Shown in pieces: positions 2,573 to 52,924 of a DNA stretch of 64,000 nt. Position numbers and translations under genes: made by a program. Origin of the DNA: Sipunculus nudus (taxonomy: Eukaryota > Annelida > Sipuncula > Golfingiida > Sipunculidae); the NCBI GenBank assembly GCA_026874595.1, contig CM049311.1, positions 32,445,176-32,509,175 on the forward strand, written 5' to 3'. How positions within the stretch are numbered: the stretch's first letter is position 1; each line of letters opens with the position of its first letter. Below the pieces are notes generated by a model, which was given only the letters and a program-made list of their open reading frames with translations, made no database searches and had not been told where the DNA came from.

Positions 2573-16620
<14,048 letters not shown>

Positions 16621-20108: not shown

Positions 20109-20699
20109 ATATGAATCTTGTTGGCGCGATAACCCAAAAAATATTTCACGGAACTTTACCAAACTTGGTATATGTATAGATATGGGTAAGAGGACGATGC
20201 CTATGTAAAATGAGGTCATGACCTTTACTAGGAGAGTGTCCTTGACCTTGAATAGGTCCAATTTTGGGGAAAATCACACAAATTCTTTAATATCTCAAGA
20301 AATCTTGCATGGATTTATCCCAAAATCAAGTTGATGGAAGATCATGGATAGGGTTGTCATGTTCCAGAAACTGGTGGCGCCACCTATTATTCTTTACTTT
20401 TTTTCGTGCCGTTTAATACCCCCTAAATTGCCACCTTACAGCACTGTGAGCATTATAAGTCAAAAACTAATGGACAGATTTCTTTTATATTATGCATATA
20501 CATAGGTATGGGTTATGGGATGATGCTTATTTAAATTGGGGTCATAACCTTTCCTATGATAGTGGCCTTGACCTTGAATATTGCCATATATGGTGAAAAT
20601 CACACACCTCTTATGATATCTCCAGTGTTGATAGCCATATGGATTTCAAACATGACTTATGTATGGCCCACCACTAAAGTAAGAACCCTATAGGTTCTA

Positions 20700-23350
20700 G
20701 GGTCATGAGGTCAAAGGTCAAGGTCACTGGACTGGCATTTTAAAAGATACTTTGGATGCATTTTAAGCCAAACTTTCATCCCAGGTCTTCCATCTTGAAT
20801 ATATAGCTCACTTGCCAATAATGGATGATCCATATAAATTTTGGGGTCACAAGGTCAAAGGTCAAGGCCACAGGAGCTATCTGTCCAAAAATTAGTTTCT
20901 GGATGATAATTCCTGCTTTTATTGATGTAATGATTTCAAAATTGACTTATATATGTCCCATTGAAAAAGCAAGACTCAAATTGATTTTGGGGTCATGAGG
21001 TCAAAGGTCAAGGTCACAGGAAACCTCTATAAAAAGATTGTGGATGCATTTTCAGCCAAACAATTCATCTCAGATCTTTCATCTTGCACATATAGTTCAC
21101 CTGCCAAGAGTGGAAGACCCCTATCAATTTTGAGGTCACAAGGTCAAAGGTGAAGGTCACAGGAGCCATATGTCCAAAAATTAGTTTCTGGATCATAATT
21201 CCTGCTTTTATTGATGTATGGATTTCAAACTTGACTTATATATGTCCCATTGGAAAAGCAAGACCCAAATTGATTTTGGGGTCATGAGGTCAAAGGTCAA
21301 GGTCACAGGACACATCTTTAAAAAGATGTGGATGCATTTTCAGCCAAACATTTCATCTCAGACCTTTCATCTTGCACATATAGTTCACCTGCCAAGAGAG
21401 GAAGAACCCTATCAATTTTGAGGTCACAAGGTCAAAGGTGAAGGTCACAGGAGCCATCTGTCCAAAAATTAGTTTCTGGATGATAATTCCTTCTTTTATT
21501 GATGTTTGGATTTCAAAACTTGACTTGAATTTGACCCATTGGAAAAGCAAGACCGGAATTGAATTTGGGGTCATAAGGTCAAAGGTCAAGGTCACAGGAA
21601 ACCTCTATAAAAAGATTGTGGATGCATTTTCAGCCAAACAATTCATCTCAGATCTTTCATCTTGCACATATAGTTCACCTTCCAAGAGTGGAAGACCCCT
21701 ATCAATTTTGAGGTCACAAGGTCAAAGGTGAAGGTCACAGGAGCCATATGTCCAAAAATTAGTTTCTGGATGATAATTCCTGCTTTTATTGATGTATGGA
21801 TTTCAAACTTGACTTATATATGTCCCATTGGAAAAGCAAGACCTAAATTGATTTTGGGGTCATGAGGTCAAAGGTCAAGGTCACATCTTTAAAAAGATGT
21901 GGATGCATTTTCAGCCAAACATTTCATCTCAGGTCTTTCATCTTGCACATATAGTTCACCTGCCAAGAGAGGAAGAACCCTATCAGATTTGAGGTCACAA
22001 GGTCAAAGGTGAAGGTCACAGGAGCCATCTGTCCAAAAATTAGTTTCTGGATGATAATTTATTCTTTTATTGATGTTTGGATTTCAAACTTGACTTGTAC
22101 TTGACCCATTGGAAAAGCAAGACCGGAATTGAATTTGGGGTCATGAGGTCAAAGGTCAAGGTCACAGGAAACCTCTATAAAAAGATTGTGGATGCATTTT
22201 CAGCCAAACAATTCATCTCAGATCTTTCATCTTGCACATATAGTTCACCTGCCAAGAGTGAAAAACCCCTATCAATTTTGAGGTCACAAGGTCAAAGGTG
22301 AAGGTCATAGGAGCCATATGTCCAAAAATTAGTTTCTGGATGATAATTCCTGCTTTTATTGATGTATGGATTTCAAACTTGACTTATATATGTCCCATTG
22401 GAAAAGCAAGACCCAAATTGATTTTGGGGTCAATAGGTCAAAGGTCAAGGTCACATCTTTAAAAAGATGTGGATGCATTTTCAGCCAAACATTTCATTTC
22501 AGGTCTTTCATCTTGCACATATAGTTCACCTGCCAAGAGAGGAAGAACCCTATCAGTTTTGAGGTCACAAGGTCAAAGGTGAAGGTCACAGGAGCCATCT
22601 GTCCAAAAATTAGTTTCTGGATGATAATTCCATCTTTTACTGATGTATGGATTTCAAACTTGGCTTTGTTATTGACCCATTAGAAAAGCAAGACCCAAAT
22701 TGATTTTGGGGTCATGAGGTCAAAGGTCAAGGTCACAGGAAACCTCTTTAAAAAGATTGTGGATGCATTTTCAGCCAAACAATTCATCTCAGATCTTTCA
22801 TCTTGCACATATAGTTCACCTGCCAAGAGTGGAAGACCCTATCAGTTTTGAGGTCACAAGGTCAAAGATGAAGGTCACAGGAGCCATATGTCCAAAAATT
22901 AGTTTCTGGATGATAATTCCTGCTTTTATTGATGTATGTGTTTCAAACTTGACTTGTATATGTCCCATTGGAAAAGTAAGACCAAAATTGATTTTGGGGT
23001 CATGAGGTCAAAGGTCAAGGTCACAGGACACATCTTTAAAAAGATGTGGATGCATTTTCAGTCAAACATTTCATCTCATATCTTTCATCTTACACATATA
23101 GTTCTCCTGCCAAGAGAGGAAGAACACTATCAATTTTGAGGTCACAAGGTCAAAGGTGAAGGTCACAGGAGCCATCTGTCCAAAAATAAGTTTCTGGATG
23201 ATAATTCCTGCTTTATTGATGTATAGATTTCAAACTTGACTTGCATATGTCCCATTGGAAAAGCAAGACCCAAATTGATTTTGGGGTTATGAGATCAAAG
23301 GTCAAGGTCACAGGACACATCTTTAAAAAGATCAAGGTCACAGGACCAAC
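20700..23350 (+). repeat. Tandem array of about nine ~287-bp dimeric units with AGGTCA motifs
   Basis: Alternating half-units of about 145 bp. One carries GGTCATGAGGTCAAAGGTCA then AGGTCAC; the other GAGGTCACAAGGTCAAAGGT then GAAGGTCAC. The first type recurs near 20707, 20997, 21287, 21577, 21867, 22147, 22436, 22718, 23005 and 23290 (spacing 280-290). Shared segments include CAAAAATTAGTTTCTGGAT and CATCTTGCACATATAGTTC. ORFs of 67-97 codons in the array are repeat shadows. Confidence 0.9.
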
Positions 23351-39627: not shown

Positions 39628-39784
39628 TGTAACGGGGTGACATAAAAAGCGGACCGAACTGTCTCGGTAGGGAAGCTTGCTCTGCTAGCGAAGCGGTTGG
39701 TACGCCGGACTTGCGCGCCACCGTTATAGGTTCGAATCCCGGATCGGCCCGATGTTTTCCCCTGAGCTATTTGTCTTCGTAACA
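39628..39784 (+). repeat. TRIM LTR 1
   Basis: 157 bp, TG...CA. It contains A box TAGCGAAGCGG (39686-39696) and B box GGTTCGAATCC (39729-39739). A ~16-bp segment (GACATAAAAAGCGG region) is missing from LTR2 but present in LTR1 of the antisense copy. Confidence 0.75.
39686..39739 (+). promoter_or_regulatory. Internal Pol III promoter-like A and B boxes in LTR1
   Basis: TAGCGAAGCGG fits the A-box consensus TRGCNNAGYGG at every position. GGTTCGAATCC fits the B-box consensus GGTTCGANNCC. Start-to-start spacing is 43 bp, within the usual tRNA range. In LTR2 the A box is intact (39947-39957) and the B box has one mismatch (39990-40000). Activity is inferred only. Confidence 0.65.
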
Positions 39785-39787
39785 AAA

Positions 39788-39805
39788 TGGGGGCTCGTCC
39801 GGGAT
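39788..39805 (+). other. Primer-binding site complementary to tRNA-Pro
   Basis: TGGGGGCTCGTCCGGGAT is the classical proline-tRNA PBS sequence, placed 3 nt after the LTR end. It is the strongest evidence that the unit is LTR-retrotransposon derived and not a tandem SINE. Confidence 0.8.
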
Positions 39806-39903
39806 GACGGTAAACTTTGAAGCCCAGGGAATAAGCTCACCAAAGTGTGACTCCTGGGATAATAAGTCTTGTTCTGACAGCAGAACGCTCTTAAGAGGGG
39901 GTG

Positions 39904-40045
39904 TGTTACGGGGTCATAACTGTCTCACTAGGGAAGCTTGCTTTGCTAGCGAAGCGGTTGGTACACCGGACTTGTGCGCAACCGTTATGGGTTCGAATTC
40001 CGGATCGGCCCAATGTTTTCCCCTGAGCAATTTGTCTTCGTAACA
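39904..40045 (+). repeat. TRIM LTR 2
   Basis: 142 bp, TGTTACGGGG...CGTAACA, homologous to LTR1 apart from the ~16-bp deletion and scattered substitutions. Confidence 0.75.
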
Positions 40046-40074
40046 AAATAGGGGCTCGTCCGGGATGATGGTTT

Positions 40075-48917: not shown

Positions 48918-49819
48918 GATGATAAAAAAAGTCCCAAACTTTAGGGGTTAATAATTTTATCAATATTGCATATAAAGGTGTGTATAAGTTGAATATGTTT
49001 CTAAAATTTCATTGGTTCGTGAATTAAACTCTCTGATTTATGATAAGAATAATTTGCATATTACTTTGCATAATAATAATTTGCATAATGAAACTAGTTA
49101 TATCCAGTCCTGGGTACTGCAGGTGACACCTGGCGGTCGGGGTCAAGTCTCATCCTGGGTCATACAGGTCACTTGGTACAGATGTGGTCTTACCGTTAAC
49201 AGTTTTTCATTAAGAGATTTAAGTCATTTGTGAATCTTTGTATCGATGTTTGATTAATTATCCCCCAGTTACTGGCAATTTTCCTCTGGGACTGTACCCG
49301 GATTGTCCTCTTAAGAAGAATTTTCTTTTTACTAGTGTAGTTCTTGTTCGCCGCAGTTCTTGCCGATCAACTGAAAAAAAAGTTTTGTTTGATAGTTTGA
49401 TTATACCCCATTCACCGAACGTAGATTCAACCCTTTCCATGAAAATCTCGTGTGATGCGTGCTCCTCTCCTTCCCTTTTCCACAAAAAACAATACTTGAT
49501 CAATTCCTAATCAGCAGAGCAAAAGTCATTCTGTACACAACAAGGTATCAAACTCAACTGAACAGAATATTATTTTGTTTTTGGCATGAAAAGGATGTAC
49601 CTAGTCATCCCGGAGTCACACCTACGTGTACCCAGTGTCTTGTACCATGATGACACGTGATGACCGCAGCTCTATACCCAGCACTGGATATAGCAAATTT
49701 CGCTATGCAAATTTATTCTTGTCACAAATAATGAATTTGAACACATGGATCAATGAAATTTTACAGACATAATAATATTCACCTTTATACATACCTAGAA
49801 TCAAAACCTTGCATAAAGT
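48917..49819. other. Intergenic, nothing recognised
   Basis: Overlapping ORFs on both strands near 49.24-49.51 kb have no recognisable product and no splice or promoter support. Confidence 0.45.
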
Positions 49820-49872
49820 ATTTATGAAAGTATTAAGACCTCAAGTTCGGGACGTTTTTACTCAATCACCCA

Positions 49873-49922
<50 letters not shown>

Positions 49923-49966
49923 GAAAGTATTAAGACCTCAAGTTCGGGACGTTTTTACTCAATCAC

Positions 49967-50018
<52 letters not shown>
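49820..50018. repeat. Tandem duplication of ~100 bp with (TA)n ends
   Basis: TTTATGAAAGTATTAAGACC then TCAAGTTCGGGACGTTTTTA, CTCAATCACCCA and a (TA)n tract occurs twice with identical unique parts (49820 and 49918). The identity points to a recent duplication or an assembly artefact at the microsatellite. Confidence 0.9.
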
Positions 50019-51413: not shown

Positions 51414-51490
51414 GTGCCAGTAGTCAGCATCCGTGCAGCATCGCAGCTACGGTTTAAGGAGGCGATTCCTGAGGACACTATATTTGTAGC

Positions 51491-52924
51491 ATGGCGTCTT
51501 TGACCGAGACTTCAGGTCATAGGAGCCCAGGTGAGACTAGTATCGGTGCCATGGGCGTGGATGAAGATGAATTTGACGTTAATAGGACTTTGCCCCCAGA
51601 AAGCATGAATTCAAGGTCTCAGTGGCGAAGCCGTTTGCGAGCCCAACCAACGGTTGATGGGTCTTACGCAGATGCATCCCAGGAGAAAAGGGGCGCTGGT
51701 GCTCGCCAACTTAGGAAAAGACTAACCCGGACTGACACGATTACCTTTGGGGGCCCAATAGAAAACTTTGAAGTGGATAAGTTCGTCGGTCATAAAGAGA
51801 AAAAGGGCCCCGAGAATGCAGCGATGGCAGGCCCCCCAATCAGGATCAACCATGGCACCGCGGTAAAACCGCGCTCTCCTCGCAAGGGAACTTTAGGAGA
51901 ATTCGTGAAAAAGCAAATATTGAATATCCGAAAACTGCGATCGACCAAAGGTAACTGGAATATGTCTAGTTCTTCGTTTTCATCTTGTCCAAATCTTGCT
52001 AGTGACGCCATTATGACGTCACCGGCCGAGAGTAAAATGAGATTGAGTGTGTCGTCTGAAGCAGGGCTTCAGGCTTCATCTAGCAGCGGGTCTGGGTCAC
52101 CGATAACCGGAAGTCGTCTGCTGACTGTCCCAGATGTCTTTACGACATCTTACACGTATTCAACAAGCCCTGACACAGCGACTTCAGATGAGAGACAAGG
52201 GAGACAACACAGCGCTCCTGCTGTGTTATCCTGTGAAAGACAATTCGCGAGACAGAACCGAAAAGACCCTTTGAAGAAAAGTTTGTCAGATAATCCTACA
52301 TGTCGAAAAGGATCGGATTTTTCTCTGCCGCGGGCCGCTCCGTTAAGTGATTTCTCCCCGGAACCGGAAGCCGCGGAAATACTGGAGTATTTATATTTGG
52401 GCAATATCGAAGCCGCATACAACAAAAGACTTTTGTGTAAGCTTAAAATTTGCTCTATCATTGACATGAGCGGCCTTACGCCGGAAGAGGTCCCAGCGAG
52501 CAAAAAGTCGGATGTACCGTGTATGTGTGAAGAGTCTAATAAGCACTTCCGGGCCAAATTGTGTGTGACCCTGCTCGAATCCCGTACCGATGATACAGAG
52601 AGTGCTTTTGAACAAATAAATCGATTTATAGAAGGGGGTAGGCGTTCTGACCGACGTGTGCTATTGCATGATTATTGTGGGTGTAACGCCGCAGCGGCCG
52701 CTGTCATTCAGTACTTAATGCAGATTCGTAATATGACGTTACGTCACGCATTCAGCCTCGTTATGAAACAAAAGTCGGACATTGACTTGAGTCCGTTTTT
52801 TCAGCATACTTTGGAGCTACTTGAGCGCCGCCTGTCACCCCAAACGAAACCCTCAATGAAATTTCGACCGAGGCTCGCCAAAATGGACAGCTTAACACCA
52901 AAAGAAGCCTGGGCAGACTGCTAA
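51491..52924 (+). CDS. Dual-specificity-phosphatase-like pseudophosphatase, single exon
   Basis: A 477-residue intact ORF with strong Kozak context (AGCATGG) and, 250 bp after the stop, an AATAAA. Residues 1-290 are Ser/Arg-rich, probably disordered, with a 14-3-3-type RQHSAP (238-243). From about 296 a DSP-like fold is readable: EILEYLYLGN, ICSIIDMSG, then FEQINRFIE, LLHDYCGCNAAAAAVIQYLM and a helix with MTLRHAFSLVM. The C-terminus is basic. In active DSPs the loop is HCx5R. Here H393 is kept, Cys is D394 and Arg is A400, so cysteine-based catalysis is not expected and a scaffold or binding role is inferred. No frameshift or internal stop, so it looks conserved and not decaying. The lack of introns in a gene of this length could reflect retroposition. 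I cannot assign a named DUSP/STYX orthologue. Confidence 0.82.
   Translation: MASLTETSGHRSPGETSIGAMGVDEDEFDVNRTLPPESMNSRSQWRSRLRAQPTVDGSYADASQEKRGAGARQLRKRLTRTDTITFGGPIENFEVDKFVGHKEKKGPENAAMAGPPIRINHGTAVKPRSPRKGTLGEFVKKQILNIRKLRSTKGNWNMSSSSFSSCPNLASDAIMTSPAESKMRLSVSSEAGLQASSSSGSGSPITGSRLLTVPDVFTTSYTYSTSPDTATSDERQGRQHSAPAVLSCERQFARQNRKDPLKKSLSDNPTCRKGSDFSLPRAAPLSDFSPEPEAAEILEYLYLGNIEAAYNKRLLCKLKICSIIDMSGLTPEEVPASKKSDVPCMCEESNKHFRAKLCVTLLESRTDDTESAFEQINRFIEGGRRSDRRVLLHDYCGCNAAAAAVIQYLMQIRNMTLRHAFSLVMKQKSDIDLSPFFQHTLELLERRLSPQTKPSMKFRPRLAKMDSLTPKEAWADC

Follow-up and report, generated by a model that had tools for sequence, protein, structure and literature searches.

TRIMs whose LTRs are tRNA-like have been named Helenus (Kojima 2024, PMC10886601). 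As described in that work, elements of this type have a total length of 311-1263 bp and occur in fungi, in the plant Selaginella moellendorffii, and in six animal phyla. In pteriomorph bivalves, 51 Helenus families are reported across five orders; some of them are primed by tRNA-Pro, and Gypsy-13_CGi is listed as a published tRNA-Pro Gypsy element (PMC10886601). The target duplication of animal Helenus elements is given as 4 bp (PMC10886601). In the view expressed by Kojima (PMC10886601), it takes experiments to conclude that the Pol III promoter of Helenus elements is functional, and Cassandra is the only validated TRIMp3 lineage. The Helenus group is also mentioned in a 2026 meeting report (PMC12859917), and nothing else evidently related was found in the literature on Helenus retrotransposons/TRIMp3; a literature search on TRIMs with tRNA-like LTRs and a box B found no paper. 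The element presented here was initially recognised in a reading made from its letters only (hereafter, the sequence-only reading), which was not aware of a described animal counterpart with tRNA-like LTRs; the suggestion that there is none has to be withdrawn, as Helenus was described in 2024, with bivalves and tRNA-Pro priming included.

Other systems resemble the element in part. Cassandra, as portrayed in PMC7215508, is likewise a TRIM whose LTRs contain a Pol III promoter, and it also forms tandem arrays, but it is found in plants and its promoter is that of 5S rRNA. The bivalve element biv-TRIM, as characterised in PMC6934838, is a TRIM that is found as solo repeats and as tandem units; it differs from the element described below in its TDRs (202-218 bp), its interior (77-80 bp), and its PPT (mostly GGGGAGA), and no unambiguous primer site is given for it in that source.

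In the window, i.e., the whole 64-kb stretch of DNA that was analysed, we found two copies of one element, best explained as a Helenus-type TRIM (TRIMp3): a miniature LTR retrotransposon that is old and non-autonomous. To this kind of element we assign a probability of roughly 0.88. The first, copy A, lies on the plus strand at 39628-40045. The sequence-only reading had described it as approx. 119 nt enclosed by two short LTRs (157 and 142 bp), and the measured parts agree with this description: LTR1 is 157 bp long (39628..39784), the interior is 119 bp long (39785..39903), and LTR2, in which some bases close to the 5' end are deleted relative to LTR1, is 142 bp long (39904..40045). Copy A contains an ungapped direct repeat of 155 nt with 92% identity; when LTR1 and LTR2 are compared at full length, their identity is 88.7% over 142 aligned bases. 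A TGTTACG/CGTAACA inverted repeat had been claimed as well; it is perfect in LTR2 only (TGTTACG...CGTAACA), whereas LTR1 starts with TGTAACG and ends with CGTAACA. The two priming signals named earlier were both located, with an 18-nt primer binding site, which we take to be of the tRNA-Pro type, at 39788..39805, 3 nt past LTR1, and the polypurine tract AAGAGGGGG at 39893..39901, 2 nt ahead of LTR2. Copy A therefore has a primer site after its 5' LTR and a purine tract before its 3' LTR, as is characteristic of TRIMs. With up to three mismatches allowed, the primer site occurs twice in the 64-kb window, both times at copy A, and 100 shuffles yielded none.

The second of these primer sites, which has one mismatch, belongs to a part of the locus that had been missed. 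The homology in copy A extends 27 bp past LTR2, to about 40072, through the second primer site, and this segment (40046..40072) corresponds to a second interior start within a truncated tandem unit. Judged by this arrangement, copy A seems to be what is left of a tandem unit (LTR-interior-LTR-interior), which may have originated by recombination between LTRs. As the right side of copy A has no LTR end, a target duplication is unreadable there.

Copy B, which also escaped the sequence-only reading, is situated on the minus strand at 14036-13662 and matches copy A with 82% identity over 295 bases (E 7e-79). It consists of an LTR1 of 147 bp (13890..14036), an interior of 119 bp (13771..13889) that is 86.6% identical to the interior of copy A and has a partly decayed primer site, and an LTR2 of 109 bp (13662..13770) that ends with CC. 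The order of parts, LTR-PBS-interior-PPT-LTR, is common to both copies, and both interiors are exactly 119 bp long. Each copy thus combines two short LTRs with a short interior within less than 1000 bp, the size expected of a TRIM (157 + 119 + 142 bp in copy A and 147 + 119 + 109 bp in copy B). Copies without this order of parts had been named in advance as the observation that would refute a TRIM; the sole other copy found in the window keeps the order. A possible target duplication of copy B is weak, with CAGT on the left (14037..14040, minus strand) and AAGT on the right (13658-13661), i.e., three of four positions match; such agreement is expected about 6% of the time from base composition, and it requires that one LTR end has been mutated. 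The copies are old and decayed.

The LTRs carry the internal promoter boxes of tRNA genes, for which the consensus is TRGCNNARYGG (box A) and GGTTCGANNCC (box B). In LTR1 of copy A, box A (TAGCGAAGCGG, 39686..39696) and box B (GGTTCGAATCC, 39729..39739) both fit these consensuses exactly and are separated by 43 nt, start to start. In LTR2 of copy A, box A is exact (39947..39957), whereas box B has one mismatch (39990..40000). The A and B boxes at tRNA spacing that were noted in the sequence-only reading are confirmed. Copy B LTR1 has both boxes 43 nt apart with one mismatch each; in copy B LTR2, box B is retained with one mismatch, while an internal deletion has taken out box A. Both boxes, with no more than one mismatch per box, are therefore found 43 nt apart in three of the four LTRs, and the conservation of boxes A and B in LTRs that marks Helenus is seen here apart from this one deletion. 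The exact pair in LTR1 of copy A is the only one on either strand of the 64-kb window and was absent from 60 simulated sequences of that length (first-order Markov); looser boxes still gave a single pair in the window, against a simulated mean of 0.033. When box A was spelled with 12 nt and box B was kept loose, the window contained no pair. Pairwise agreement across the four LTRs, counted in cells that are not independent, is 89/96 in the box columns and 524/637 in the remaining columns, which we regard as a weak sign that the boxes may have diverged less than the other LTR positions.

It should be noted that the resemblance to tRNA does not go beyond these boxes. ARAGORN, run with the bacterial code setting, reported 0 tRNA genes in the 64-kb window, and Rfam returned no family at gathering score; when its cutoff was relaxed to an E of 10, none of the three stretches searched (501, 421, and 89 bases) gave a tRNA family either. 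The full tRNA gene that had been looked for as a candidate was thus recognised by neither program. The tRNA-like stretch also does not fold better than its shuffles (z +1.03). Thus, it is by its promoter boxes, and not as a tRNA, that the stretch is tRNA-like. According to Kojima (2024, PMC10886601), few bivalve or fungal Helenus families could encode a tRNA, yet tRNAscan-SE still assigns tRNA types to many Helenus elements; the present LTR, which is recognised by neither ARAGORN nor Rfam, differs in this respect, and its lack of recognition argues somewhat against a recent tRNA origin.

A further regularity concerns termination. One TTTT, a possible Pol III terminator, is present in each of the four LTRs, 26-27 nt past the start of box B, and none is present in either of the two interiors. 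In copy A, the sole TTTT of LTR1 lies at 39755..39758 and that of LTR2 at 40016..40019 (plus strand); by our own estimate, it is unsurprising that an interior of 119 bases has none. The tRNA-type internal promoter in each LTR would probably recruit RNA polymerase III. In the cycle that could follow, transcription would begin shortly before box A of the 5' LTR and stop at the TTTT of the 3' LTR, and the tRNA-like stretch, being present at both RNA ends, would presumably be the R region. Minus-strand synthesis would then be primed at the primer site by a cellular tRNA-Pro and plus-strand synthesis by the purine tract, and reverse transcriptase and integrase would be provided in trans by a putative partner, a Gypsy-type element. 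Because the TTTT inside LTR1 lies before the primer site, Pol III could stop early, and a full-length RNA would need read-through. It is conceivable, and we put this forward only tentatively, that the TTTT is a leaky terminator for Pol III, so that mostly LTR RNAs of roughly 100 nt would be made, together with rarer read-through RNAs that stop at the second TTTT, and that the Pol III start and the terminator would in this way set the R region. If this proposal is true, the unproven TRIMp3 cycle in animals becomes directly testable. The main value of the element is indeed in the mechanism, as a TTTT in each LTR gives a clear Pol III prediction.

The same observations can be read in another way, in which the element is the same TRIM, is transcribed by Pol II, and carries the boxes as a relic of a captured SINE or tRNA fragment; this explanation departs from the preferred one on the polymerase only. 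It gains from the failure of the tRNA-like stretch to be recognised as tRNA and from the TTTT in LTR1, which would tend to halt Pol III ahead of the primer site. Nonetheless, three of the four LTRs have kept both boxes at the distance seen in tRNA genes, neither box deviating at more than one position, and the boxes are somewhat more conserved than the remaining LTR; transcription by Pol II appears unlikely to us.

Much less can be said for a tRNA-derived SINE, or a satellite of tandem tRNA-like units, that has been taken for an LTR element. Such sequences would explain the box A/B promoter and the repetition of the unit beyond LTR2 in copy A, but they would not be expected to combine a primer site 3 nt past one LTR with a purine tract that stops 2 nt short of the next, to have TG...CA ends, or to show the same order of parts at another site, as copy B does (although its LTR2 ends with CC), and neither of the two copies has a 3' tail. 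Copy B largely refutes this interpretation, which we consider highly improbable. The assembly of these motifs by chance in AT-rich DNA has no point in its favour and can be dismissed as practically nil, refuted as it is by the 155-nt repeat at 92%, by a second copy with 82% identity over 295 bases (E 7e-79), and by the absence of the primer site from shuffles and of the exact box pair from simulations.

The TRIM of the Helenus type remains, and several lines of evidence converge on it: two copies on opposite strands and at different sites have the same order of parts and 119-bp interiors; both boxes are 43 nt apart in three of the four LTRs, with the exact LTR1 pair absent from 60 simulated windows; each LTR has one TTTT and the interiors have none; and bivalve Helenus families primed by tRNA-Pro have been published, as has a tRNA-Pro Gypsy element. 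Counted against it are the unrecognised tRNA, the folding z of +1.03, the one LTR without box A, the early TTTT, the weak target duplication, and the failure to see a partner element among the frames scanned.

Placed beside the published descriptions (PMC10886601), the element shares with Helenus the boxes A and B in its LTRs, a primer site complementary to a tRNA 3' end (with tRNA-Pro among those of bivalves), and a purine tract, and its tandem arrangement has a parallel in the tandem arrays of the zebrafish family LTR-11_DR. It differs in box A, which reads TAGCG here and TRGCY in most Helenus elements (PMC10886601). For the 4-bp target duplication of animal Helenus, there is a weak candidate in copy B, with agreement at three of four positions. 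Judged by the published descriptions, the element is a further Helenus member, perhaps of an already named family. Exact patterns of the element had 0 matches in viral contigs (four patterns) and in prokaryote genomes (one pattern), and no match to phage records was found; as an animal element is not expected in any of these collections, such results are uninformative about novelty. With this element, the Helenus group gains a case that was spotted independently; it also illustrates that intergenic promoter boxes of the tRNA type are not necessarily the marks of a SINE. Should the host belong to some group other than the pteriomorph bivalves, Helenus would have a wider range in molluscs than is known so far.

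As regards a partner element, four of the six open frames of at least 120 aa in the window were scanned with Pfam, and no reverse transcriptase was found among these four. A match was obtained for one of the four, a plus-strand frame of 483 aa (51473-52924), which has a dual specificity phosphatase domain at residues 307-452 (Pfam DSPc, E 5e-14). The window also contains repeats of other kinds. A tandem array at 10658-12012 has a period of 337 bp and about 4 copies (81% matches), and a longer one at 20638-23332 repeats a 289-bp unit, which contains AAGGTCA-type motifs, about 9.4 times (89% matches). At 49819-50015, a 97-bp unit that includes AT repeats is duplicated nearly perfectly (99% matches).
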